DNA of 21,393 nt from a virus. Under the pieces are notes generated by a model. The model was not told where the DNA came from. It saw only the letters and a list, made by a program, of their open reading frames with translations, and searched no databases. Below are positions 2,798-20,007 of this stretch, in pieces. Positions within the stretch are counted from its first letter, which is position 1. Every line of letters starts with the position of its first letter. The position numbers and the translations under genes were made by a program. The stretch lies in IMG/VR virus record IMGVR_UViG_3300039191_000507, positions 1-21,393 of that record. One strand, written 5' to 3'.

Positions 2798-3923
2798 CAT
2801 ATTAGATTATTTATTTTTGATACCATCGTATCAAAGGTATGGTATGTTGACTAAACTTCTTAAACAAATTGAAGAACAATGTGAGGGTAAAACCTATAAA
2901 ATCGTTGTAGTTGATGACCATTCAACAGACCATAGGTACAATAACCTATCTTTTGATTTTAATAATGTTAAACACATTAGGAATAGTAAGAACCAAGGAA
3001 TTAAAAACTTCAATATTACAATTAGTAAATTATTAAAAGAAAGTGAGCAAATCAATTATGATGTTTCTGTATTTTTAGCTGATGATTTACAGTTGTCAGA
3101 AAACTTTATTAAGTATTTAGATGCATCATTCCATGAGCACAACCTAAAAGCATTAAATCTATTTTTATTTAAAAAAGAAATATACACCAATTGGGGTTGT
3201 GTTGATTGGGTCGATGGTGCTTTTGCAATTAAGAAAGAATATTTTGACCTTGTTAATTATACATTACCAAATCCAAATAAAAACAATACTCTGGAAAGTT
3301 CTGGATTATGGAGAATATTCACAGCTAGGTTAGAAGTGCTTGAAATTGATGTTTATATGCCTAAACATTCTTTAGTTAAACATCTAGGTCACACATTATC
3401 TGTAATGCATCCAGAACAAAGAAAAACTAATCCGATTGATGTCTTTAGTTTTATTGATGATTACCCAAAAGATAAAATATATCGAAAACAATTAACTAGA
3501 CCTCAAAAAAGAGGAAAAAGTAAATTTAATCTAACCACTAAAAAGAATGTTAAACAACAAGTATTAAATAGGGAAGTAGAACATATTAAAAACTCTAAAC
3601 CTACTAGTTTAAAAAATAGAAAAAAGCTCGATAAGGAAGCGGCTAGAAAACGTATGATTGAATACAAAAGATACAAAAACAAAAATAAAAAAAAAAGAGT
3701 AAGAGGTAATAATTCTAAAAAGAAAGTTAAACCTAAACCAAAAAAATCGACTAAAGACCATACATCTGGATTATTCAGTGAGGAACATCAAAACCTTATA
3801 AAACAGCAAGAGTCAAAAAAACACAAACCTAAACCAAAGAATAAGAATAAAAAGGTTAACAAAGAGATTCAAAAAACGAAGCAAAAAAAAAAGTTCAACG
3901 TCAATCTAAGGTCAAGGAGATAA
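2781..3923 (+). CDS. GT2-type glycosyltransferase with long lysine-rich tail
   Basis: About 380 residues. The first ~230 form a GT-A family 2 domain: LFLIPSYQR near the start, VVVDDHS at 42-48 (nucleotide-sugar site), an NQGIKNFN segment, and ADD at about 90-92 in the place of the metal-binding DxD. The remaining ~150 residues are extremely rich in Lys, Asn, Arg and Gln (many KKxK and KPKPK blocks) and look disordered. GTG 2781 is proposed because the conserved strand starts about 10 residues later; TTG 2760 is the alternative, and both overlap the previous gene. The 3' end contains an A10 run (3883-3892), and the -1 frame beyond it stays open and equally Lys-rich to 3976, so the C-terminus may be longer. 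The GT call is solid. A role for the tail in binding nucleic acid or an acidic glycan is a guess. Confidence 0.78.
   Translation: MTSNTNILDYLFLIPSYQRYGMLTKLLKQIEEQCEGKTYKIVVVDDHSTDHRYNNLSFDFNNVKHIRNSKNQGIKNFNITISKLLKESEQINYDVSVFLADDLQLSENFIKYLDASFHEHNLKALNLFLFKKEIYTNWGCVDWVDGAFAIKKEYFDLVNYTLPNPNKNNTLESSGLWRIFTARLEVLEIDVYMPKHSLVKHLGHTLSVMHPEQRKTNPIDVFSFIDDYPKDKIYRKQLTRPQKRGKSKFNLTTKKNVKQQVLNREVEHIKNSKPTSLKNRKKLDKEAARKRMIEYKRYKNKNKKKRVRGNNSKKKVKPKPKKSTKDHTSGLFSEEHQNLIKQQESKKHKPKPKNKNKKVNKEIQKTKQKKKFNVNLRSRR
3883..3892 (+). other. A10 homopolymer, candidate -1 slippage site or indel
   Basis: Ten consecutive A residues lie 31 bases before the annotated stop of the lysine-rich glycosyltransferase. 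Shifting to the -1 frame here replaces the last 10 residues (FNVNLRSRR region) with about 28 residues that begin VQRQSKVKEIKLEK and end at a TAA at 3974-3976. That leaves 5 bases to the next ATG instead of 58. A second A10 run sits at 3687-3696 in the same gene. Confidence 0.5.
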
Positions 3924-5777: not shown

Positions 5778-5782
5778 GTATT

Positions 5783-5790
5783 TATAAATA
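5783..5790 (+). promoter_or_regulatory. TATAAATA, candidate T4-type late promoter before phoH
   Basis: The intergenic gap between pth2 and phoH contains an exact TATAAATA, the T4 late-promoter -10 octamer recognised by gp55, inside the longer TATTTATAAATA. It ends 14 bases before the phoH ATG. The phage encodes a gp55-like sigma factor at 9615. The genome is AT-rich, so chance occurrence is possible. Confidence 0.5.
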
Positions 5791-5804: not shown

Positions 5805-6680
5805 ATGGCAAAAAAACAAAAAGAAGTTAAAAAACCGCAAGAAACAATAAGTGAAATACTCCCAACGAGATATAGACTTAAATGTAAAAATCACATCCAA
5901 AAAGACTTCGCTAAAGTTATCACTGAGAAGGAGATAATAATCGCATCTGGCCCAGCTGGGGTTGGTAAGTCTTATGTATCGGTTGCTAGAGCTATCGAAT
6001 TACTCCAAAACAAAACAAGCCCTTATAAAACCATTATTATTTCTACTCCAGCTGAGGAAGTGGGTGAGAATCTTGGGTATTTACCAGGTAACTTGAGAGA
6101 AAAAATGGACCCATTCTTAGCTTCCACTCTTGATATCTTTGATAAGATTATCGGAAAGAAGAAAAGATTGGAGCTTGAAGAGTCTGAAATCATTCAGATA
6201 CAACCATTAGGCTTCATTAGAGGTAAATCTATTGATAATACTATACTTCTTATGGAAGAGGCTCAGAACATGTCTACAAATCAAATGAAAACACTACTAA
6301 CTAGAATTGGTGAGAATACAAAGTTTATTATATCTGGTGACTTAGACCAATCTGATAGGTATAGAGATATTAAACAATCTGGATTGTACGATGCAATTGA
6401 AAGACATAAGGATGTTGAAGAAATCGGTTTTATCTCATTTGAATCAAAACACATAGTTAGAAACCCATTAATTACTAAAATACTTGACAATTATAAAAAC
6501 GATACTAAGTTTAACGGAGTAGATGCTTCCAAAGTAATTAGAGTGGAACCAAGGATGGTTAACGAAGTTGGTAAAAAAAGTTCTAAAGATAAAGAATCCA
6601 AAATTGAACCATATTACCCTGAATATGTTTCACCATCTGAAAGAATTTCTAATTGGTTTAAGAAAAATTTCAAATGGTAG
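5805..6680 (+). CDS. phoH: PhoH-family ATPase
   Basis: This 291-residue P-loop ATPase has GPAGVGKS (Walker A) at residues 49-56. The PhoH signature with PAEEVGENLGYLPG and EKMDP is at about 82-103, and a Walker B region TILLMEEAQN is at 146-155, followed by ISGDLDQSD. The family usually has DEAQN; here the first acid is Glu (EEAQN). PhoH-like genes are common auxiliary genes of large marine and T4-like phages, and some related proteins are ATP-dependent RNA helicase/nuclease partners; the role in phage is unsettled. The N-terminus is a short Lys-rich lead. The C-terminus has an extra ~50 residues with a basic WFKKNFKW end. It begins 15 bases after a TATAAATA late-promoter-like box. Confidence 0.92.
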   Translation: MAKKQKEVKKPQETISEILPTRYRLKCKNHIQKDFAKVITEKEIIIASGPAGVGKSYVSVARAIELLQNKTSPYKTIIISTPAEEVGENLGYLPGNLREKMDPFLASTLDIFDKIIGKKKRLELEESEIIQIQPLGFIRGKSIDNTILLMEEAQNMSTNQMKTLLTRIGENTKFIISGDLDQSDRYRDIKQSGLYDAIERHKDVEEIGFISFESKHIVRNPLITKILDNYKNDTKFNGVDASKVIRVEPRMVNEVGKKSSKDKESKIEPYYPEYVSPSERISNWFKKNFKW

Positions 6681-7713: not shown

Positions 7714-8811
7714 ATGGAAGAACAATTAAAGAAAATTGAAAAAGCTATCAAAAATTTAGAGAATAAGGACTTCGGACTTTATTTCTTTGTTTTGGATACT
7801 AAAGGTAACCCAACTGCTGGAGTTGCTAATATTTACGAACACGTAAAAGCGTTAAGAGAATTAGGCTACAATGCCAATATTTTAACTGAGGATGATACCT
7901 ATCATGGTGTTGGTGAATGGTTAGGTCAAGAATATATGGAATTACCCCATATATCAATTAAATCACAAGATTTAGTAATAAGTAATACAGACTTTGTAAT
8001 TATCCCAGAGATATTTGCACAACTTATGGACCAAATAAAGGGGTTCCCATGTAAGAAGATTGTATTTTCACAAAACTATCATTACGTATTGGATATCTTA
8101 AACCCAGGTAAAAGATGGTCCGATTATGGTTTTAATGATGTAATTACAACATCAGATAAACAAGCTAATTACTTGAAGAATTTATTCCCAACCGTTAAAA
8201 CACACGTTGTACCAGTTTCGATTCCAGAGTACTTTAAGCCAACTAAAAGGATGAAACAACCAGTAATTAACATACTTTGTAGAAACCAAGGTGATGCGGC
8301 TAAAATCGCTAAATCATTTTATCTACAGTATCCAACTTATAAGTTCGTTACATTTAAGGAACTTAGAGGTATGCCAAGGAAATCATTTGCTGAGGAATTA
8401 GGTAAATCTTGCCTCGCTATTTGGGTTGATGATGTCGCTGGGTTTGGTACATTCCCATTAGAAGCTATGGAATGTGATACACCAGTTATTGGTAAAATCC
8501 CTAACTTAATCCCAGAGTGGATGGAAGAAAAATCTGAGGGTAATGAGGTTATTGTTAAGAATAACGGTGTTTGGACTAATAACATCCTTAACATTCCAGA
8601 ATTAATTGCAACCTATATGAAAGTATGGTTTGAAGATTCAGTACCAGAAGATTTACTTGAAGGTATGAAAGCATCAACTGGACAATATACACCAGAAGCT
8701 CAAGCTAAAGTAATTGAATCAATTTATGCTAATATGGTTAATAGCAGAAAGGATGAGTTTTTAGCTCTAAAAGAATCACAAGAAAAAGCTAATACAGAAA
8801 ACAATGGCTAA
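7714..8811 (+). CDS. GT-B fold glycosyltransferase (GT4-like)
   Basis: The protein is 365 residues. After a short coiled N-terminus, a first Rossmann-like half has LYFFVLDTKGNPTAGVANIY, with the Gly-rich acceptor-side loop typical of GT4 enzymes. LRELGYNANIL follows, and then a stretch predicting alternating strands and helices to the SQNYHY and VPVSIPEYF linker region. The second half contains VAGFGTFPLEAMECDTPVIG, the sugar-nucleotide binding motif in which the first Glu is conserved across GT4 proteins. The DVAGFG lead-in resembles a modified E-x-F-G segment. It overlaps the next glycosyltransferase by 8 bases, so the two are probably made together and may act in series. Donor and acceptor are unknown: virion protein, modified DNA base and host glycan are all possible. 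Confidence 0.8.
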   Translation: MEEQLKKIEKAIKNLENKDFGLYFFVLDTKGNPTAGVANIYEHVKALRELGYNANILTEDDTYHGVGEWLGQEYMELPHISIKSQDLVISNTDFVIIPEIFAQLMDQIKGFPCKKIVFSQNYHYVLDILNPGKRWSDYGFNDVITTSDKQANYLKNLFPTVKTHVVPVSIPEYFKPTKRMKQPVINILCRNQGDAAKIAKSFYLQYPTYKFVTFKELRGMPRKSFAEELGKSCLAIWVDDVAGFGTFPLEAMECDTPVIGKIPNLIPEWMEEKSEGNEVIVKNNGVWTNNILNIPELIATYMKVWFEDSVPEDLLEGMKASTGQYTPEAQAKVIESIYANMVNSRKDEFLALKESQEKANTENNG

Positions 8812-9613
8812 GAAAAAGGAAAATAAAACAGATATCACGGTAATTATCCCAGTACACAACATTACTGAGGAAACTGGAAAATCATTTGCTAATGCAGTCA
8901 AAAGTGTCTCAGAACAATTTGTTAGACCAGATGCATTAATGATTGTCGCACCAGCAAAATCAGAAACACTTAATTGGTTGAAAGATTTTGATTATGGTGA
9001 AATTAAAGATATAGTAACTATTGTTGAAAACGATGGTGAAACAGACTTTGCATCCCAAATGAATTTTGGTGTGTCAAAAATTAAAACAACATGGTTTGGA
9101 TTATTAGAATATGATGACGAATTTTCTAAGATTTGGATTAAGAATGTTGTTGAATATAAAGATTGTTACGATGACATAGATATGTATTTACCTATGATTG
9201 TTGATGTTGATGAGAATGGTGCGTTTATTGGACTTACAAATGAGGCTGTATGGGCACAGGATTTCTCAGAGGAAATGGGTGTATTAGATAACACTGCATT
9301 ACTAGCATATAACAACTTCAACCTTGATGGAATGGTTGTGAAAAAAGAAACCTATGAAGAGTTAGGTGGATTAAAACCTAGTATGGAATTGACATTTATT
9401 TATGAATTCTTACTAAGATTGACTCACTTCTCAACAAGAATTATGGTAGTACCAAGATTTGGTTACAAACATGTTAACCTTAGAGAAGGTGGTCTATTCC
9501 ATGATTATAGAAATACTTTAAAACCAGACGAAGCAAGGTGGTGGATGTCATTGGCTAAACAAGAGTATTTCCATACGGAAGACAGAAAAATAACATACAA
9601 TAAAGAATCTTAA
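8804..9613 (+). CDS. GT2-type glycosyltransferase (GT-A fold)
   Basis: This 269-residue protein has the GT-A outline. The first strand is DITVIIPVHNITEETG. A VSEQFVRPDALMIV segment follows where family 2 enzymes bind the nucleotide. FASQMNFGVSKIKTTWFGLLEYDDEF comes next, with the DxD-like metal site at EYDDE. LDGMVVKKETYEELGG lies further on, the region where many GT2 proteins read xxxxfkrevfexiGG. A His-containing segment near the end (FGYKHVN) completes the domain. No membrane segments are present, so it is cytosolic. The start ATG overlaps the preceding glycosyltransferase gene by 8 bases, and the stop is followed after one base by the sigma-factor gene. It lies in the same cluster as a GT-B enzyme, which suggests two successive sugar transfers. 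Confidence 0.8.
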   Translation: MAKKKENKTDITVIIPVHNITEETGKSFANAVKSVSEQFVRPDALMIVAPAKSETLNWLKDFDYGEIKDIVTIVENDGETDFASQMNFGVSKIKTTWFGLLEYDDEFSKIWIKNVVEYKDCYDDIDMYLPMIVDVDENGAFIGLTNEAVWAQDFSEEMGVLDNTALLAYNNFNLDGMVVKKETYEELGGLKPSMELTFIYEFLLRLTHFSTRIMVVPRFGYKHVNLREGGLFHDYRNTLKPDEARWWMSLAKQEYFHTEDRKITYNKES

Positions 9614-9614
9614 A

Positions 9615-10358
9615 ATGGCTAAAAAAAGAGGACGTAAAAGGAAAAATGATTTATACTTTGGTCCCGCACAAGAAGAAGCCGTTGTTAAATTCTTAGAATG
9701 TGATGATGATATAGAAAGGAATAGGATTTATAATAAATTCTTGAGAGACCCGCTAAATAAGATGATTGAATCAATCATTAGGAGATACAAACTTTATAGA
9801 AAGGGTGAAAGCTTCGAAAACTTACATAGCGACACTCTCTCTTTTCTTATCACCAAAGCGCATAAATTTGACCCAACCACAGGTAAAAAGGCATATTCGT
9901 ACTACGGAACAATATGTAAGAATTATATTCTTGCATTATTGATTAAGGACGACAAAGCGATGAAAAGAAAGCTATCCTTCGAAGACACATTCGGTTCGAT
10001 AGAAGGTAGAGAGGATTTAGTTTATGACTTAGCGGACACCGATTACGAAATGGCTAATTTCATACAAGATATCTCAGATGAGATTAAAGAGGAATTAGAT
10101 TCAGATGGTGACGATTCTAAAAAGAAACTAACGGAGAATGAAAGGAGAGTCGGAGAAGCCCTTGTTGATATACTCGACAATTGGGAGACTATCTTTGAAA
10201 ATATGGAGGGCGGTTCTAAATATAATAAGAATACTGTATTGGCAACAATCAGAGACTACACTAATTTGACCACAAAGGACATTAGAGTATCTATGCGTAG
10301 GTACAAAAAATTGTACGCTTTGATTAAAGGGGGTAGAATAGATGAAGGATATTTGTAG
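9615..10358 (+). CDS. late-transcription sigma factor, T4 gp55-like
   Basis: This 247-residue protein begins with a basic MAKKRGRKRKN and a FGPAQEEAVVKFLE helix. Then comes a compact sigma region-2-like block (about 43-110): DPLNKMIESIIRRYKLYRKG, a HSDTLSFLITKAHKFDP segment, and KKAYSYYGTICKNYILALL. The FDP-x6-AYSY pattern is typical of gp55-type phage sigma factors. A long acidic insert (SDEIKEELDSDGDDSKKK) separates it from a C-terminal helical part that may contain a helix-turn-helix (TRDYTNLTTKDIRVSMRRY type). It is larger than T4 gp55 (185 residues). In T4, gp55 binds host core RNA polymerase with gp33 and gp45 to read TATAAATA promoters; boxes of that kind are seen here before 5805, 10399 and 13871. 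Confidence 0.82.
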   Translation: MAKKRGRKRKNDLYFGPAQEEAVVKFLECDDDIERNRIYNKFLRDPLNKMIESIIRRYKLYRKGESFENLHSDTLSFLITKAHKFDPTTGKKAYSYYGTICKNYILALLIKDDKAMKRKLSFEDTFGSIEGREDLVYDLADTDYEMANFIQDISDEIKEELDSDGDDSKKKLTENERRVGEALVDILDNWETIFENMEGGSKYNKNTVLATIRDYTNLTTKDIRVSMRRYKKLYALIKGGRIDEGYL

Positions 10359-10376
10359 AAAACCTTTATTCTAAAT

Positions 10377-10387
10377 ATTTATAATTA
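10377..10387 (+). promoter_or_regulatory. TATTTATAATTA, candidate late promoter
   Basis: The 40-base gap between the sigma gene and the 10399 gene contains ATATTTATAATTAAATAG. The core TATTTATAA is shared with the gaps before phoH and before the 13871 gene. The box ends 11 bases before the ATG, so a start site about 6 bases downstream would leave a leader of only a few bases. It matches TATAAATA in 6 of 8 positions. Confidence 0.4.
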
Positions 10388-10398
10388 AATAGAACGCT

Positions 10399-10785
10399 AT
10401 GCCTAGAAGAAAGAAACAACAAATTAAAGTTAATGATACTGAAAGCCTTGAAGGATTAATGCAAGAGGTTTATAATGATGCTTGCACACAAATTAGTCAA
10501 GCTCAGAATACTATCAATGAATTATCAAATGGTATTGTTCCAGAAGATGCGGATGATAGTAGTAAGATAGCAAAGGAGAAAACCAATGCTCAAAAAATAA
10601 AAACTGATAACATCAAGATTAAACTTGAAGTGGCTAAATTACAAAGTGATGTGATTAAACATAATGGTAATCTTGATGAGGCAAATCAGTCTAGAACAGC
10701 AAGTGGAGCTCCTTCACTTGAAGACTTTAAACAAATTAGAGACCTAGTTAAAGGTAATAATAAAGACAATGGAGAAACTAAATAA
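10399..10785 (+). CDS. coiled-coil protein of unknown function, possible small terminase-like
   Basis: A 128-residue, helix-rich, highly charged protein with a basic start (MPRRKKQQIKVN). The body has heptad-like helices (LEGLMQEVYNDACTQISQAQNTINEL and KIKTDNIKIKLEVAKLQSDVIKH), and the C-terminal tail is flexible (SGAPSLEDFKQIRDLVKG). Length and central coiled coil recall T4-type small terminase subunits (gp16), which also have a central helical hairpin and disordered ends, but no residue-level match is clear. It could instead be a gp33-like co-activator given its place right after the sigma gene. Both ideas are guesses from size and context. It is followed after 2 bases by the 512-residue putative structural gene, so they are cotranscribed. 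Confidence 0.6.
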   Translation: MPRRKKQQIKVNDTESLEGLMQEVYNDACTQISQAQNTINELSNGIVPEDADDSSKIAKEKTNAQKIKTDNIKIKLEVAKLQSDVIKHNGNLDEANQSRTASGAPSLEDFKQIRDLVKGNNKDNGETK

Positions 10786-13848: not shown

Positions 13849-13864
13849 GATATTTATAATAAAA
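13849..13864 (+). promoter_or_regulatory. GATATTTATAATAAAA, candidate late promoter
   Basis: The 30-base gap before the 13871 gene contains GATATTTATAATAAAA, with TATAATAA ending 8 bases before the ATG. The core TATTTATAA is also in the gaps before phoH and before the 10399 gene. The same 16-mer occurs once more at 2765-2780, inside codons for Asp-Ile-Tyr-Asn-Lys, just before the proposed start of the lysine-tailed glycosyltransferase. Confidence 0.45.
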
Positions 13865-13870
13865 AGGGAT

Positions 13871-15331
13871 ATGGTAATACGTACATTCTTCGATAGAAAC
13901 AATACAATCATATATAATGATTTAACAAATACTGGTAAAAACCCAGTGGCAGAGCTATTTTATGGTGGTTCTGTAGGTGATGAAACTTATAGTAGATTCC
14001 TATTTCATTTCGATGAAAATAGGCTTAGAGAACTATATGCTAATCACACATTATGTGATTTATCTAAATTAACACATAAAATTAAAATGACCAACACTGG
14101 TTCATTTGATACTGATTTACTTGGTAAATCAACTTGTGGTGGTAAAGATAGAGCATGTTCTTTTGATTTAATATTATTTCAAATAAATCAAGATTGGGAT
14201 GAAGGTAATGGTTATGACTTCGGTAGTTGTGCGTTTCTAAGTCCTAGTTCAGCTTCAATAGCTACATGTCCATCTAATTGGGCCGATGCTCAAACTAATA
14301 TCCCATGGTCTGAATATGGTACTTATAGTGGGTCTAGTTCTGCGGTAACAATTACATCACAACACTTTGAAGAAGGTAATGAAAATCTAGAAATGGATGT
14401 TACTGAGATAGTTAACGGTATTATAACTGGTGATACCAACTATGGTTTTGGTATTGGTTTCCCTTCAAATTTAGAAGCTTTGGCTACAGATGATTTACAA
14501 TATGTTGGCTTCTTTACGAGACATACACAAACGTTCTATGAACCATTCTTAGAATCGGTATATGATAATCCAATTAGAGACGATAGAGCTAACTTTTACA
14601 TGGATAAAGTAAATAAACTTTATTTATATTCAAATATTGGTGGTGAACCAACATCACTTGATAATTTACCAGAACTTACAATTACAGATGCATTTGGAGA
14701 TGTTATTACAACATATAGCTCAGATACACTTAATTGTAGTGGCACTACGCTTACAGGGAGCGTTGTAAGCAACGTAACTTGTGTTTCTAAGGGTGTATAC
14801 TCAGCTGATGTATTTATCCCATCCTCAGCGTATCCAGAGGGCGATTGTACAGACTTTACAGATACTTGGTCAAATATATGCATTAATGGTGTTAAACGTC
14901 CAGATGTGGAGCTTGATTTCATTATTAAAGACCCTTCTGGTTATTACAACATTGGTAATAATGATGAGTTACCTAAAAAGTATGGTTTTAAAGTTACTGG
15001 TATTAAACAAGATGAAAGTATCAAACGTGGTGATGTTAGGAGAGTTAATGTAACTGCTAAAATACCATATACAATCAACCAATCAGAAATTATTGATAAC
15101 TTAGAATATAGATTATACGTTAAAGAGGGTCAAAACCAATTTACAGTAATCGACTTCCAAGATGTTAATAGAGCTTTCAATAGTAATTATTTCTATATTG
15201 ATACAGCAAGTCTGATTCCAAATAAATATTACATAGATGTTAAGGTTAAATCACATAACGAGGTTACTACATTATCAGAGGCTTTAAGCTTCAATATTGT
15301 TAGTCAATCTGAATCAAGAATTAGCCAATAA
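13871..15331 (+). CDS. putative beta-rich tail/virion protein, 486 aa
   Basis: I do not recognise the family. The protein is beta-rich and Ser/Thr/Gly/Asn-rich, typical of phage tail or fibre-related proteins. It opens VIRTFFDRNNTIIYNDLTNTGKNP and YSRFLFHFD, suggesting an N-terminal beta-sandwich resembling carbohydrate- or wall-binding modules. A middle segment (about 90-170) has several Cys residues. The C-terminal 180 residues contain repeated Ig-like strands (VELDFIIKDPSGYYNIG, RRVNVTAKIPYTI, YYIDVKVKSHNEV). No catalytic motif is visible. It follows the gp5-like gene and ends the plus-strand virion block, with a terminator right after it. The AT content and codon use match its neighbours. 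A baseplate-attached adhesin or tail-end protein is the best guess. Confidence 0.7.
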   Translation: MVIRTFFDRNNTIIYNDLTNTGKNPVAELFYGGSVGDETYSRFLFHFDENRLRELYANHTLCDLSKLTHKIKMTNTGSFDTDLLGKSTCGGKDRACSFDLILFQINQDWDEGNGYDFGSCAFLSPSSASIATCPSNWADAQTNIPWSEYGTYSGSSSAVTITSQHFEEGNENLEMDVTEIVNGIITGDTNYGFGIGFPSNLEALATDDLQYVGFFTRHTQTFYEPFLESVYDNPIRDDRANFYMDKVNKLYLYSNIGGEPTSLDNLPELTITDAFGDVITTYSSDTLNCSGTTLTGSVVSNVTCVSKGVYSADVFIPSSAYPEGDCTDFTDTWSNICINGVKRPDVELDFIIKDPSGYYNIGNNDELPKKYGFKVTGIKQDESIKRGDVRRVNVTAKIPYTINQSEIIDNLEYRLYVKEGQNQFTVIDFQDVNRAFNSNYFYIDTASLIPNKYYIDVKVKSHNEVTTLSEALSFNIVSQSESRISQ

Positions 15332-15497: not shown

Positions 15498-16355
15498 ATG
15501 AAACAAATAGCGGAATCTATGCCTACCGCAAATATCGCAGTGAACAAGAGTAGGTTAAAGATGTACAACAAAAAAAGCGATATACCGACCTTCTATCTAC
15601 AGAAAGGTCAAGAATTCCAAATTGAATTATTCAATTCAACAACGGATACTATCTTAGCAAAGATATCATTAAATAACAATCCAATAGCACAAGGTGGTTT
15701 AGTATTAAGACCAGGTGAGAGGGTATTCCTTGACCGTTACCTAGATGTGGCAAAGAAGTTTAAATTCGACACATATGAGGTAGCAAATTCAAAGGCAGCT
15801 CAAAAAGCAATTGAAGAAAATGGTGATTTTAAGGTTGAATTCTATAGAGAGGAACAACCAAGACCAATTTTAAAATTAAACCAACCTACAAGGAGTTATC
15901 CTTGGGACCCAAATCATTATCCAACATATGGTGGCACTTTTAATAATGGTGGTTATGCTCCAAATTCACTTACAAATATTGGTAGCAGTGGTCAAGCTAC
16001 TATGGATATGTTGGGAGATGTAGGTTCAGTAGCTACTGGCCAAGCAGCATCATTCAATGCCAACTTAAACCTTGATACACCTAAAAGTGCTCCTATACGC
16101 AAAAAAAGAAGTAAAAAGAGTAAATCGGTGGAAACAGGTAGGGTTGAACAAGGTCAAAACTCTGACCAAAAATTACAAACAATTGATAAAACTTTTGAAT
16201 ATATAGCGTTCCATACAATTGAATATAAATTATTACCTGTCTCACAGAAGGTTAATACAACAAACGATGTTAAATTCAAAAAGCATTGTGTTGAGTGTGG
16301 TGCAAAACAAAAACCAAAAAATAAGTTCTGCCCAAAGTGTGGGACTAAAATATAA
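15498..16355 (+). CDS. zinc-ribbon C-terminal protein, 285 aa
   Basis: A 285-residue protein of unnamed family. Residues ~25-120 form a folded alpha/beta or beta-sandwich domain (IPTFYLQKGQEFQIELF, VLRPGERVFLDRYLDVAKKF), with a style I associate with hypothetical proteins of large phages, though I cannot name one. A Gly/Asn/Pro-rich linker with WDPNHYPTYGGTFNNGG follows, then a Ser/Lys-rich basic stretch (KKRSKKSKS). The C-terminus is a zinc ribbon with Cys264-x2-Cys267 and Cys278-x2-Cys281. The zinc ribbon plus basic linker suggests binding to nucleic acid or to another protein, whereas the N-terminal part could be a virion decoration. It is preceded by a candidate promoter and followed by a strong terminator, so it forms its own transcription unit. 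Confidence 0.72.
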   Translation: MKQIAESMPTANIAVNKSRLKMYNKKSDIPTFYLQKGQEFQIELFNSTTDTILAKISLNNNPIAQGGLVLRPGERVFLDRYLDVAKKFKFDTYEVANSKAAQKAIEENGDFKVEFYREEQPRPILKLNQPTRSYPWDPNHYPTYGGTFNNGGYAPNSLTNIGSSGQATMDMLGDVGSVATGQAASFNANLNLDTPKSAPIRKKRSKKSKSVETGRVEQGQNSDQKLQTIDKTFEYIAFHTIEYKLLPVSQKVNTTNDVKFKKHCVECGAKQKPKNKFCPKCGTKI

Positions 16356-16378: not shown

Positions 16379-16413
16379 AAATGGGAAGTTTCGAAACTTC
16401 CCATTTTTTTTTT
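16379..16413 (+). terminator. strong intrinsic terminator
   Basis: A 28-base perfect palindrome (16379-16406; each arm reads AAATGGGAAGTTTC) is followed by a run of ten T residues (16404-16413). It closes the zinc-ribbon gene unit. The last T lies two bases before a promoter-like TATATTTGC element, so terminator and next promoter are almost fused. Confidence 0.9.
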
Positions 16414-16414
16414 G

Positions 16415-16423
16415 TATATTTGC
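16415..16423 (+). promoter_or_regulatory. Bacteroidota-type -7 element TATATTTGC
   Basis: TATATTTG fits the Bacteroidota consensus TAnnTTTG and lies exactly 12 bases (measured from its first T) before ATG 16427. Unlike the sites at 16805 and 18141, no TTG lies 20 bases upstream; that position is inside the terminator palindrome. Confidence 0.5.
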
Positions 16424-16426
16424 ATT

Positions 16427-16795
16427 ATGATTGGTGATAAAATATATCAAATGACTTATGCTGATGGTGATAGTGATTGGTTTGATATCAATGGTGAGTA
16501 TCATAATCATAATATGGATAACCATCCAATCATTGATGAATATGGTACTAAGTCTTGGTATAAGCATGGTTTACTCCATCGTGAAGGAGATAAGCCAGCT
16601 ATTATACATGTCAATGGAACTATGGAATGGTATAAGCATGGTAAACACCATAGAGAATGTGGTCCAGCTGTGACTCATCCAAATGGAGAAATGCATTGGT
16701 ATCAGCATGGTAAACGCCATCGTGAAGATGGGCCAGCTGTTATACTTCTTACTGGGACTGAATATTGGTTTAAAGATGGTGAATTAATTAATTAA
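16427..16795 (+). CDS. MORN-like/YwqK-type repeat protein, 122 aa
   Basis: A 122-residue protein made of tandem 23-24-residue units of the form W-Y-x-H-G-x-x-H-R-E-x-G-P-A-V-x-x-x-x-x-G. Three units are clear (Trp at residues 44, 68 and 91); a degenerate first one has Trp18 and a partial last one has Trp114. Similar repeats occur in many phage and bacterial proteins, often annotated MORN-like or YwqK-like. They fold as beta-hairpin stacks, and no catalytic site is known. ATG 16427 is preferred over an upstream TTG in the promoter. With the -7 element 12 bases upstream, the message would be leaderless or nearly so. A strong terminator precedes it, so it is probably expressed early by host polymerase. 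Confidence 0.78.
   Translation: MIGDKIYQMTYADGDSDWFDINGEYHNHNMDNHPIIDEYGTKSWYKHGLLHREGDKPAIIHVNGTMEWYKHGKHHRECGPAVTHPNGEMHWYQHGKRHREDGPAVILLTGTEYWFKDGELIN
16478..16795 (+). repeat. tandem WYxHGxxHRExGPA protein-coding repeats
   Basis: The Trp codons of successive units start at 16478 (degenerate), 16556, 16628, 16697 and 16766, so the three clear units have periods of 72, 69 and 69 bases. DNA identity is visible too: TGGTATAAGCATGGT occurs at 16556 and 16628 and, with one change (cag for aag), at 16697. Confidence 0.8.
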
Positions 16796-16804
16796 TTAAA
16801 ATAC

Positions 16805-16835
16805 TTGTATAATACCAAAAAATTTTGTACATTTG
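16805..16835 (+). promoter_or_regulatory. Bacteroidota-type promoter, TTG-N20-TACATTTG
   Basis: TTG at 16805-16807, inside ATACTTGT, is followed after exactly 20 bases by TACATTTG (16828-16835), fitting TTG-N20-TAnnTTTG. The ATG of a 41-codon frame follows 4 bases after the element. The minus-strand site at 18111-18141 has the same ATACTTGT and the same spacing. Confidence 0.65.
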
Positions 16836-16839
16836 CAAT

Positions 16840-16965
16840 ATGAAACGCGAATTGAATCCAGAAGGGTGGCACGAGATAACCACTGTGAAGGTTAAAAATA
16901 TAGTACGTAATTTCAGTAGTAATGAAATTTGGGTTAAACTTCATTATGATGACCCCAAGAGGTAA
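16840..16965 (+). CDS. small ORF directly after promoter (41 aa)
   Basis: A 41-codon frame starts at ATG 16840, four bases after a Bacteroidota -7 element, and ends at TAA 16963-16965. The product (starting MKRELNPEGWHEITTVKVKN, ending KLHYDDPKR) has no family I know. Support comes from the precise promoter-to-ATG spacing, shared with the genes at 16427 and 18106, and from the overlap with the zinc-ribbon gene that follows. It could be a leader peptide controlling that gene or a small phage protein. Without the promoter it would not be convincing. Confidence 0.5.
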   Translation: MKRELNPEGWHEITTVKVKNIVRNFSSNEIWVKLHYDDPKR

Positions 16966-17137
16966 AAAACTTAAAGGTCGAAAAGAATGTAAATCTTGTG
17001 GTACTAATTTTAAAGATTCTGGTTCAGACGTTGCACTAGCATTCACTAACAAGGGTAATAAAATTCTATGTCAAGGATGTACTGATTATTTTGAAGGTGA
17101 AGGAATTGATATAATAATACGAAAAACTGATGGGTAA
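16946..17137 (+). CDS. small CxxC-CxxC zinc-ribbon protein (63 aa)
   Basis: From ATG 16946 this is a 63-residue protein with Cys15-x2-Cys18 and Cys42-x2-Cys45, the two knuckles of a zinc ribbon, preceded by a basic start (TPRGKKLKGRKECKSCG). It probably binds nucleic acid or a protein partner such as RNA polymerase. ATG 16946 (or the next codon, 16949) lies inside the end of the 41-codon frame; an earlier in-frame ATG at 16922 would add eight residues. The last bases overlap the next start (ATGGGTAA), so translation is coupled. Small zinc-ribbon proteins of phage are often host-takeover or transcription factors, but this role is not shown. Confidence 0.65.
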   Translation: MMTPRGKKLKGRKECKSCGTNFKDSGSDVALAFTNKGNKILCQGCTDYFEGEGIDIIIRKTDG

Positions 17138-17378
17138 ACCAACTATAAAATGTGAGAGAGTGTTTAATTACACACATGATGATACAGCAATTAAAATTGT
17201 CATGTTACATTCAGATACATTTGTTTGGATGCAATATGGTCCAAATGAAGGTAGCTCTTGTGACATTGAGGTATGTAAACAATATACTAAAAAAGAAATA
17301 CAGTCTATGGTTTCATTTTTCGAACCTTTAGGTTCAATTGAAGCTATTGAATTATTTAATAAATTTGTAAACACATAA
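17130..17378 (+). CDS. hypothetical protein, 82 aa
   Basis: An 82-residue protein of unknown family. It reads as a compact alpha/beta protein: KCERVFNYTHDDTAIKIVML, TFVWMQYGPNEGSSCDIEV, then helices KKEIQSMVSFFEPLGS and IEAIELFNKFV. It contains three Cys residues but no paired CxxC. Its ATG overlaps the preceding stop by 8 bases (ATGGGTAA). The next gene begins 10 bases later. It belongs to the small-gene cluster between two terminators and is likely a phage early or accessory protein. Confidence 0.6.
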   Translation: MGKPTIKCERVFNYTHDDTAIKIVMLHSDTFVWMQYGPNEGSSCDIEVCKQYTKKEIQSMVSFFEPLGSIEAIELFNKFVNT

Positions 17379-17388
17379 AATATAATAC

Positions 17389-17628
17389 ATGAAAAGAATA
17401 ACATTTCATTTAACTAACGTTAAACCAATACTCGTAACTACTAAAACTTTTAATAAAAGTACTGAGAAATACGACTACACAAAGAAGAAGAAAACGATTA
17501 CTACAGTTTCGTTTGAGTGCAAAACTGAGGAAGAAGGTTTATCATACATGAACAACTATGTTGATGATAAGCAAAAGAAAGAAAAGTCTATTGAAGTAAC
17601 TAAACATTACTTCTCAAATATACTATAA
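17389..17628 (+). CDS. hypothetical basic protein, 79 aa
   Basis: A 79-residue Lys- and Thr-rich protein. The N-terminal half is predicted beta (RITFHLTNVKPILVTTKTF), followed by a lysine-rich turn (TKKKKTITTVSFEC) and an acidic helix (EEEGLSYMNNYVDDKQKKEK). No family is recognised. It starts 10 bases after the preceding gene with an A/T-rich leader and no Shine-Dalgarno. It is the last plus-strand gene before the shared palindromic terminator. Confidence 0.6.
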   Translation: MKRITFHLTNVKPILVTTKTFNKSTEKYDYTKKKKTITTVSFECKTEEEGLSYMNNYVDDKQKKEKSIEVTKHYFSNIL

Positions 17629-17632
17629 AAAG

Positions 17633-17656
17633 AAAGGCCCATATGGGCCTTTTTTA
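17633..17656. terminator. bidirectional intrinsic terminator
   Basis: AAAGGCCCATATGGGCCTTT (17633-17652) is a perfect 20-base palindrome with T residues following on the plus strand and A residues before it. It can stop transcription from the plus-strand small-gene cluster and from the minus-strand gene ending at 17654. Confidence 0.9.
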
Positions 17657-18106
17657 TTTTATCTTTATTAATTCGATTAAATCCTTTCTTTCTTGTTTAG
17701 ATTGCTCCAACATATCCATAGTTGGTTCTATAAGTGTAGTACCATCTGTAAGATGATTACTATAAAATAGATACTTATTCCAATAATAAGCTTCTTTAGT
17801 TAATGAATAGGTATATTCTAATAACCAATTACTTCTTGCAATACCATCTAATTTCTTACAACCTAACGATTCATACATTATTAGGTTATGATTTGCATTA
17901 TCATATAATTTATATATAACCTTCCTAGTGATATTTGGAAACCATATATGTTCACCATTATCATCAGTAGCAGTATTCATTGAAGTATCTAGAAATGTCT
18001 CACCCAATTTAACAGAAATAATATCGAAAACGTCACGATATCCAATTACTTGTTCGGTTACTTCTTTAGATAGTTTTTTTATTTCTTCATCATCTTTATC
18101 ACTCAT
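17654..18106 (-). CDS. hypothetical protein, 150 aa
   Basis: A 150-residue, mostly helical, charged protein of unknown family, without membrane segments. The N-terminus is acidic/basic (MSDKDDEEIKKLSKEVTEQV). The middle has an aromatic-rich part (HIWFPNITRKVIYKLYDN, then SNWLLEYTYSLTKEAYYWNKYLFYS), and the end is a charged helix (LEQSKQERKDLIELIKIK). Its ATG follows a -7 element (TATATTTG) by 4 bases, and a TTG box lies 20 bases upstream of that. The gene therefore looks independently transcribed by host-type polymerase rather than being read through from the capsid gene, which ends upstream at a terminator. It converges with the plus-strand cluster at a shared terminator. Confidence 0.72.
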   Translation of the reverse strand: MSDKDDEEIKKLSKEVTEQVIGYRDVFDIISVKLGETFLDTSMNTATDDNGEHIWFPNITRKVIYKLYDNANHNLIMYESLGCKKLDGIARSNWLLEYTYSLTKEAYYWNKYLFYSNHLTDGTTLIEPTMDMLEQSKQERKDLIELIKIK

Positions 18107-18110
18107 AACA

Positions 18111-18141
18111 CAAATATACTATAAAACAACTTGTACGACAA
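18111..18141 (-). promoter_or_regulatory. Bacteroidota-type promoter, TTG-N20-TATATTTG (minus)
   Basis: On the minus strand TTG (18141-18139, inside ATACTTGT) is followed after 20 bases by TATATTTG (18118-18111), and the ATG at 18106 begins 4 bases later. The element, spacing and ATG distance equal those of the plus-strand site at 16805-16835. Confidence 0.7.
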
Positions 18142-18152
18142 GTATATAAAAC

Positions 18153-18183
18153 AAAAAAGCCCTCGCAATGCGAAGGCTTTTTA
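18153..18183 (-). terminator. intrinsic terminator downstream of the capsid gene
   Basis: On the minus strand AAAAAGCC, a bulge, then TCGC form a stem around ATT with GCGA and GGCTTTTTT (one A-C mismatch), followed by T residues. It begins 25 bases after the capsid stop and ends just before the promoter of the 18106 gene. The plus strand also has a T-run, so it could act both ways. Confidence 0.8.
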
Positions 18184-18207: not shown

Positions 18208-20007
18208 TTATCTCAACTCGTTAATGTTGAATGTTGGAATACCATCAACTTTAATATGACCGTAGAATCTGTTGTTAACAACTTTCTTAGCATATCTTGT
18301 CATGATACCCTTCACTGGAGCGAAGTTGAATGGGTTGTACATTGTAGGTGTAAGTTGCATTGGCACGTATGGTGCGTAGATGTAACCTGTGTCTAACAAC
18401 GACTTACCTTTGTGACCGATAATCATTGAGTTAGCTGGAGCGTAAGGGTCTCTAAATACTTGGTATCTACCAGATAATGAACCTACTCTCTCAATACCCA
18501 TGTTGTATTGGTCTTGCTCTGGTGAAGCATCACTTACGTGGAAGTACTCTAAGTCATCGAATACCGCTGAAATTTCAGAAGATACTACGATAAAGTTTGC
18601 ACCACCTCTAAGTGTTGACTTGTGAATCTGAGCTGAAACTTGGTTAATCTTAGTGATTAACGTTTGATTCCACTCTTTCTGTGTATATGGTGAAGCGGCA
18701 GAAGAAGCTTTTCTCCATCCGTTGTAATCCCATCTTAGTTGCCATGCAGCAGCCTTTCTGATATCTCTAAGGATTTCCCTATCAATTTCCGCAGCTACTT
18801 GCTCTGAAAGCATTGCTGTCAATTCAGCCTCAGCATCAATGTTGTGGAATGCACTAACATCTTGCGCTAATTCTGGAGACCATGTTGCTCTCAATTTTCT
18901 TTCTTCAACAGAAACAACTACCTCGTCAAGCTTAAATGAAACTTCACCAAGTTCAGTTTCTAACTCTAAAGATGCGTATTCTGCCCAAGATACGATAAAT
19001 TTACTCTCAGTAAACGCAGTTGCAGCAGATGCAACAGCACCGATGTAACCATCGTAAGTTGAAGTAGTCACAGCTGGGTGTGAAAGGTCTAACTCAAGGT
19101 AAAGGTCACCCAAAGAGTCACAGATGTCATCGTAAGATACGATTCCTTTTCCGTACTTTTGTGTTACCAATCTGAATGGAATTTCAGCATCACCCGCGAT
19201 GATTGTTTCACCGTCTGGGTCAAGGATATCAGAAGATGCACCTTCAACAACTTTCAATGAAGCCAAGAATGACTCAGTGTCCATGTTGTGACCGTCAGGT
19301 CCAGTTAATCTACCTTTATCGTTACCAGCACCTCCAGTAAATCCAGAAACTCTCAAAATAAGGTTTCTAAGTGTACCATCAGTTGCTAATGGTGAGTTAG
19401 AAGCATCAGCTTGGTCTGTAAATGTACCGCCTTTCCCTAGGGTTACGATAACATCAGAACCAGTTGTAATTGTAATTTCTCCTTTTGAAAGGTCAAATAG
19501 ACCATCGTTATAGAAGATATCATACAAGTTCTTCGCTTGGTATTGCGTTAAAGCACAACCAGCTCCAGCAGTAACACAGTCTGGAAGGTGTTCACCAGCC
19601 ATTGATGTGTGTGCAGAGTACTGAGCCCCATCGTTATATGGGTCACCAGCGTTACCGTTAGCGTCTACTCTTGATGATGTTTGTGGTACGAAGAAGAACA
19701 ATTTACCAATAGGCATGTTCATTGCTTGTACAGATACGATATCATTCGCCAATAATTTAGAGAATACTCTTCTCACGATTGGGAATACTACAGTTTCGAA
19801 TGACCCAGAAGAGTCTGCTGTAGTTGATTCGTTTAGTAAGTGAGAAGCCTCGTTCTCATAAAGCTGAGCGATGTTCTCCTTAACGTGTCCTTTAAGACCT
19901 TCTAGGAATCCTAGTCCTTCCCATTTTTCTTGCACTTGCGAACGCACTTGCTTCATGTGATTTAGACCAATATTACCTACTTGTCCAGAAGTTAATAAGT
20001 GTGACAT
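18208..20007 (-). CDS. major capsid protein, T4 gp23-like
   Basis: A 599-residue homologue of T4 gp23. Alignable landmarks are VRRVFSKLLANDIVSVQAM (~78-96; T4 has a VRRAIPNLIAFDICGVQPM text), WSPELAQDVSAFHNIDAEAEL (~389-409) and AAEIDREILRDI, and near the C-terminus GHKGKSLLDTGYIYAPYV plus FNFAPVKGIMTRYAKK. The N-terminal ~60 residues form the delta region. LNEST at 58-62 fits the T4 prohead-protease rule (L-x-E, then a small residue) at the position of the gp23 cut, so Ser61 is the likely mature N-terminus. It exceeds T4 gp23 (521 residues); most extra length is in a middle region (about 110-330) that may hold an insertion or decoration domain. It lies directly after the scaffold gene, as in T4, with a terminator downstream. 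Confidence 0.95.
   Translation of the reverse strand: MSHLLTSGQVGNIGLNHMKQVRSQVQEKWEGLGFLEGLKGHVKENIAQLYENEASHLLNESTTADSSGSFETVVFPIVRRVFSKLLANDIVSVQAMNMPIGKLFFFVPQTSSRVDANGNAGDPYNDGAQYSAHTSMAGEHLPDCVTAGAGCALTQYQAKNLYDIFYNDGLFDLSKGEITITTGSDVIVTLGKGGTFTDQADASNSPLATDGTLRNLILRVSGFTGGAGNDKGRLTGPDGHNMDTESFLASLKVVEGASSDILDPDGETIIAGDAEIPFRLVTQKYGKGIVSYDDICDSLGDLYLELDLSHPAVTTSTYDGYIGAVASAATAFTESKFIVSWAEYASLELETELGEVSFKLDEVVVSVEERKLRATWSPELAQDVSAFHNIDAEAELTAMLSEQVAAEIDREILRDIRKAAAWQLRWDYNGWRKASSAASPYTQKEWNQTLITKINQVSAQIHKSTLRGGANFIVVSSEISAVFDDLEYFHVSDASPEQDQYNMGIERVGSLSGRYQVFRDPYAPANSMIIGHKGKSLLDTGYIYAPYVPMQLTPTMYNPFNFAPVKGIMTRYAKKVVNNRFYGHIKVDGIPTFNINELR

Follow-up and report, generated by a model that had tools for sequence, protein, structure and literature searches.

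The window analysed here is the whole IMG/VR record IMGVR_UViG_3300039191_000507, a 21.4-kb fragment of a virus (21,393 nucleotides), and the region between the gene at 15498-16355 and the major capsid gene is composed of the following features:

16379-16406, plus strand: intrinsic terminator that ends the upstream gene 15498-16355, with a stem of 12 bp and the loop TCGA (dG -14.7 kcal/mol, z -4.8)
16415-16422, plus strand: -7 element TATATTTG of predicted leaderless promoter 1, followed by CATT and the ATG at 16427
16427-16795, plus strand: predicted leaderless gene 1, 122 aa, with KHGKxHREDGPA-type repeats
16805-16807, plus strand: -33 TTG of promoter 2, N20 to the -7 element, within ATACTTGT
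16828-16835, plus strand: -7 element TACATTTG of predicted leaderless promoter 2, followed by CAAT and the ATG at 16840
16840-16965, plus strand: predicted leaderless gene 2, 41 aa, at the head of a probable four-gene operon
16949-17628, plus strand: downstream operon genes (62, 82 and 79 aa) that overlap or lie close together
17630-17655, plus strand: operon terminator, a hairpin with T-runs on both strands
17654-18106, minus strand: predicted leaderless gene 3 (150 aa), occupying the hypervariable slot behind gp23
18118-18111, minus strand: -7 element TATATTTG of predicted leaderless promoter 3, followed by TGTT and the ATG at 18106
18141-18139, minus strand: -33 TTG of promoter 3, N20 to the -7 element, within ATACTTGT and the palindrome ACTTGTCGTACAAGT
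18154-18182, minus strand: intrinsic terminator after gp23 (dG -17.9, z -5.5)
18208-20007, minus strand: T4-type major capsid protein gp23 (PF07068, 9.8e-72)

The preliminary description of this DNA had drawn attention to three occurrences of TAnnTTTG-N4-ATG (16415 and 16828 on the plus strand, 18118 on the minus strand), two of them with TTG-N20 inside ATACTTGT; all were found at these positions, the window contains no others, and all three also fit the stricter form TAHHTTTG, i.e. without G at the two variable positions. Their ATGs head open reading frames of 122, 41 and 150 aa. The -33 TTG is present at 16805 and 18141 (N20 in both cases) and in most of the related phage promoters; upstream of 16415 no TTG occurs at 19-21 nt, and the terminator stem-loop with the loop TCGA is positioned there instead: its T-run abuts the -7 element and forms the spacer, while the hairpin fills the -33 region. 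The palindrome ACTTGTCGTACAAGT (ACTTGT-CGT-ACAAGT; 18143-18129, minus strand) spans the -33 box of promoter 3 and could be an operator.

Promoters 1 and 3 are located directly behind strong intrinsic terminators, so that terminator and host-type promoter share one intergenic element (16379-16426 and 18106-18182). Among the -7 promoters of the related phages with an upstream terminator hairpin, the loop was centred 20-26 nt before the -7 element in 12 of 29, and several such hairpins carry TTG or TTTG within or beside the loop. The genes starting at 16840, 16949, 17130 and 17389 probably constitute one four-gene operon that ends at the terminator 17630-17655, which may also serve the minus-strand gene. 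PHROG and Pfam comparisons assigned no function to the three gene blocks. The homologue search yielded no relative of the 150-aa gene and one related contig only for the 122-aa gene; the 41-aa ORF at 16840 had no homologue among the collected loci and, of the three, is least certain to be a gene. The 79-aa operon protein has a homologue in locus L084 and a weak match to a PHROG of unknown function. Across the related loci, the slot after gp23 is occupied by 22 gene families. Elsewhere in the window, two family 2 glycosyltransferase genes (2844-3923 and 8804-9613) lie within the structural region.

Considered by itself, the count of three matches is only suggestive and not decisive: shuffled versions of the window contained 0.71 N4 matches on average and reached at least three in 6 of 100 cases, and the -7 motif taken singly shows no excess (37 observed versus 32.9 expected). 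Because the pattern in the window is only suggestive, the excess outside the window decides the matter. An unbiased set of 80 loci was picked by gp23 similarity alone, with the window left out of the counts; genes were called by a promoter-blind script and the distance was taken from TAHHTTTG to the start codon. This distance was 3 nt in 2 genes, 4 nt in 12 genes and 14-34 nt in 28 genes, with not a single gene at 0-2 or 5-13 nt; column-shuffling gave a mean of 0.30 and a maximum of 2 in 200 at the 4-nt position. The excess of the pattern over shuffled sequence, which had been proposed as a check of the leaderless reading, holds for the phage family (12 genes versus 0.30 expected in the 80 loci) and is not significant in the window alone. 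For the full pattern TTG-N19-21-TAHHTTTG-N4-ATG in the 80 loci, 10 of 10 ATGs opened an ORF of at least 50 aa, compared with none of the 12 ATGs pooled from N5-N8, N10 and N12.

A larger set of 2.6 Mb was partly picked for having matches, which leaves the 80 loci as the fair test; here the distance was 4 nt in 38 genes, 5 nt in 7 and 6-13 nt in 11, with a hump from 14 nt onward. After the gap filter, 37 genes of 32 protein families remained at N4 (0.6 expected). When the spacing k in TTG-N19-21-TAHHTTTG-Nk-ATG was varied in this set, an ORF of at least 50 aa was opened by 46 of 48 ATGs at k=4, by 2 of 8 at k=8 and by 1 of 9 at k=12; in pattern-sampled IMG/VR contigs, among the matches listed, the frame was opened by 98 of 109 N4 ATGs versus 29 of 83 N8 ATGs. 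The explanation of the three matches as chance occurrences in AT-rich sequence can draw on the shuffles of the window and on the missing excess of the -7 motif, but faces an exact-spacing peak in the relatives far above the column-shuffle, the diversity of protein families behind it and the ATGs, nearly all of which open genes; we regard it as highly improbable for the window. At the level of the family, the chance reading is refuted by the spacing peak. The per-gene chance rate in the family (0.6 per approximately 1,780 genes) corresponds to approximately 0.01 N4 starts expected among the approximately 30 genes of the window.

Promoters read by the primary sigma factor of Bacteroidota (sigma-ABfr) have the form TTTG / TAnnTTTG. 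The family logo has TTTGG as its -33 box and TAHHTTTG as its -7 box at a gap of 19-20 nt, in leaderless and leadered promoters alike, and thus bears out the earlier assignment to the published, host-type Bacteroidota promoter; the TTG formerly noticed 20 bases upstream is the -33 box of this logo. At a gap of 20 or 19 nt, TTG is present in 36 of the 47 leaderless promoters and in 125 of the 177 that have a leader, and the leadered phage promoters are purine-rich at the predicted start position. The promoters of window and family are accordingly similar to those of sigma-ABfr in the -7 box, in the TTG/TTTG at 19-20 nt and in the purine-rich start position; unlike host sigma-ABfr genes, the phage promoters place the start codon at the predicted +1, an arrangement that is rare in hosts. 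In Flavobacterium johnsoniae, transcription starts 4-5 nt past the -7 element, and G is avoided at its two variable positions (PMC6847099). Since four bases separate the -7 element from the ATG in the window, the A of the AUG would be +1. The peak at exactly 4 nt, the nearly empty zone from 5 to 13 nt and this published distance strongly support the prediction that the window sites are leaderless promoters, with the start site predicted from spacing in other species; the leaderless reading put forward earlier therefore appears to be right and is better backed than could be shown at that time.

Real promoters with ordinary leaders would also be conceivable if the true start codons were situated downstream and the ATG at +1 belonged to the promoter: codon 9 of gene 16427 (16451) is a second ATG in frame, and a start there would result in a 24-nt leader typical of Bacteroidota. 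However, an ATG at the k=4 offset was present in none of 160 leadered promoters and is for this reason not regarded as a promoter element, and the N4 ATGs of the larger set almost invariably open a long frame. In addition, the homologue of gene 16427 in locus L082, which is without this promoter, also begins at M1, and gene 18106 has no further ATG before codon 43. A downstream start is therefore considered quite improbable. Under the preferred leaderless reading, roughly 20-33% of the -7 promoters in the phage lineage are predicted to be used without a leader. A phage-encoded SmpB of 147 aa (L095:322-762, plus strand) is among the genes predicted to be leaderless. A bS21 homologue is encoded in 7 of 32 related phage records (G021, G022, G025, G029, G030, G032 and G033), the record of the window not being among them; bS21 sits near the anti-Shine-Dalgarno region of the ribosome, and a link of the phage protein to the initiation mode is conceivable.

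The hosts deviate from this distribution. Among 57 Bacteroidota host loci, 4 genes were found at 3-5 nt versus 38 at 14-34 nt, with no peak, and one Flavobacteriales genome gave 1 gene at 3-5 nt versus 23 leadered genes. The full N4 pattern occurred 59 times in 40 Flavobacteriales genomes (approximately 126 Mb; reversed control 28, N8 40) and 32 times in the 2.5-Mb phage set (control 1). Leaderless mRNAs were reported to amount to 5.5% in F. psychrophilum, 3.7% of the 5' UTRs in B. thetaiotaomicron are shorter than 10 nt, and a leaderless signal was present in 1 of 37 surveyed Bacteroidetes/Chlorobi genomes (Zheng 2011, PMC3160421). Because these fractions are low in sequenced Bacteroidota, the hosts are not known to favour leaderless mRNAs, which are rare there. 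In three host genomes, a conserved promoter TTG..CCTATTAATTCTAGTACATTTGT-ATG (G038:C21:34955-34992, G039:C46:38419-38456, G040:C24:21205-21242) looks like that of a conserved leaderless host gene. No 4-nt peak was observed in 50 kb each of crAss001, phi38:1, T4 and RM378. The closest sequenced isolates by gp23 include Flavobacterium phage immuto and Rhodothermus phage RM378; in 150 kb of the cultured relative immuto (NC_055915.1), TAHHTTTG promoters are almost absent, though its host is a Flavobacterium (LMO8), and its early promoters must differ in form or be degenerate. The proposed Bacteroidota host of the window virus is supported by the promoter type, by the gp23 similarity to a Flavobacterium phage and by a gene of a related phage for which almost all of the closest cellular relatives belong to Bacteroidota.

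A second class of putative promoters and a candidate factor for their recognition are present in the window:

2767, plus strand: TATTTATA, the fourth window copy
5779-5786, plus strand: late-type TATTTATA, 18 nt upstream of the PhoH gene that starts at 5805
9615-10358, plus strand: putative gp55-like late sigma factor, 247 aa (E 2.5e-5 to T4 gp55; phrog_234, late sigma factor)
10376-10383, plus strand: late-type TATTTATA, 15 nt upstream of the gene that starts at 10399
13851-13858, plus strand: late-type TATTTATA, 12 nt upstream of the gene that starts at 13871

The assignment of 9615-10358 to the gp55-type sigma factors is weak but consistent (further matches: Sigma70_r2 below the cut-off; gp55 in PDB 7d7c, E 0.02). 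Similar-sized ORFs with weak gp55 matches were observed in eight related contigs. The late promoter of T4 is TATAAATA, read with the sigma factor gp55, and TATTTATA is the reverse complement of this octamer. In the family, TATTTATA stands upstream of the genes for terminase, portal, head protease and endolysin, in immuto upstream of those for terminase, gp20, sheath and tube; its distance to the start codon in the family peaks at 3-4 nt (18 and 15 genes), passes through a trough at 6-9 nt and rises from 11 nt. For TATAAATA there is no such leaderless peak; in place of the T4 octamer, these phages use TATTTATA. The genes behind leaderless -7 promoters include homing endonucleases, sugar epimerases, RNA ligase and SmpB, those behind leadered -7 promoters clamp loader, helicase loader and thymidylate kinase. 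As -7 promoters precede replication and accessory genes and TATTTATA precedes structural genes, the three window genes are likely, on this indirect evidence, to be transcribed early. Among the orthologues of the gene after gp23 (L065-L070, L077, L027-L029), some have the host -7 element and others TATTTATA at a near-identical position; a few base changes switch the class, with the leaderless spacing kept (L070 versus L069 and L077).

These switches, the similarity of the late-type ATATTTATA to TATATTTG and the gp55-like factor encoded in the window would also be in accordance with a phage-modified polymerase, rather than the host polymerase with its primary sigma factor, reading the -7 motif, in which case the genes would not be early. 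Such a polymerase is unlikely in view of the -7 and -33 boxes and their spacing, which equal the host consensus, and of the division of gene classes between the -7 element (clamp loader, helicase loader, kinase and accessory genes) and TATTTATA. We therefore retain the host polymerase as the probable reader of the three sites.

The exact spacing might further reflect common descent rather than selection, if the sites were derived from a mobile promoter cassette that spread recently. Indeed, ATACTTGT is common to two of the elements, a few families recur, and the similarity between the DNA of the window and of L081, where the homologue of the 122-aa gene occurs in unrelated context with TATATTTG-N4-ATG retained, sets in precisely with base 1 of the -7 element, a different upstream sequence in L081 again providing TTG-N20. 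However, the 37 N4 genes represent 32 families, their upstream sequences are unrelated and their four spacer bases vary, and an empty zone of short leaders is common to both promoter classes. A recent cassette is thus improbable as the origin of the spacing.

Taken together, the three sites are very probably promoters of leaderless accessory gene blocks that are used by the host polymerase with the Bacteroidota primary sigma factor. According to this model, the A of the start codon would be the first base transcribed, the resulting mRNAs would be without a leader, and ribosomes would initiate at the 5'-terminal AUG; the promoters would drive small accessory gene blocks between late structural operons, with transcripts presumably made early in infection, and the two promoters behind intrinsic terminators would insulate their block from late transcription and give it its own start. 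The terminator context, the hypervariable slot and the second, late-type class of promoters, which has this leaderless spacing as well, go beyond the preliminary description. A wider reading, for and against which we see the balance as even, would be that a T4-like Bacteroidota phage lineage regularly uses leaderless initiation at host-sigma promoters and at its own late promoters, that leaders of approximately 1-9 nt are selected against, and that the -7 element, four bases and AUG form a plug-in module by which accessory genes and early or late control are swapped, leaderless throughout.

The mRNAs of Bacteroidota are without Shine-Dalgarno sites, and leaderless mRNAs are regarded as rare among them. 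For the question of how Bacteroidota phages start translation, dozens of predicted leaderless genes in two promoter classes offer a direct test system. For annotation, a -7 element followed by four bases and ATG can be taken as a rule for a gene start, and TATTTATA together with the gp55-like factor provides a testable late-promoter consensus for these phages. In the openly searchable literature, no description of leaderless phage genes in Bacteroidota or of a TATTTATA late promoter was found.

Among known systems, leaderless genes with TA-like signals approximately 10-12 bp before the start codon (Zheng 2011, PMC3160421) are comparable in having the promoter box at a fixed short distance from the start codon. 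With the T4 late system, the window and its relatives share a gp55-like protein and an AT-rich octamer upstream of structural genes; they differ in having TATTTATA as the octamer and in its leaderless peak, at 3-4 nt. A further parallel are the promoter-early stem-loops (PeSLs), which reportedly go back to Arbiol 2010 and Comeau 2014. By the description of PeSLs in T4-like phages (PMC4503421), both systems combine a stem-loop terminator with a host-type promoter between nonessential genes of a T4-like genome, and in both the gene content varies at the junctions, one break of homology in the present family falling exactly at the promoter. Long or near-identical repeated copies of the module were not seen within the window. 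Compared with the PeSLs, the module of the window is distinguished by its Bacteroidota -33/-7 promoter, by its predicted leaderless start and by a hairpin that sometimes fills the -33 region; it resembles a leaderless Bacteroidota counterpart of the PeSL cassettes.
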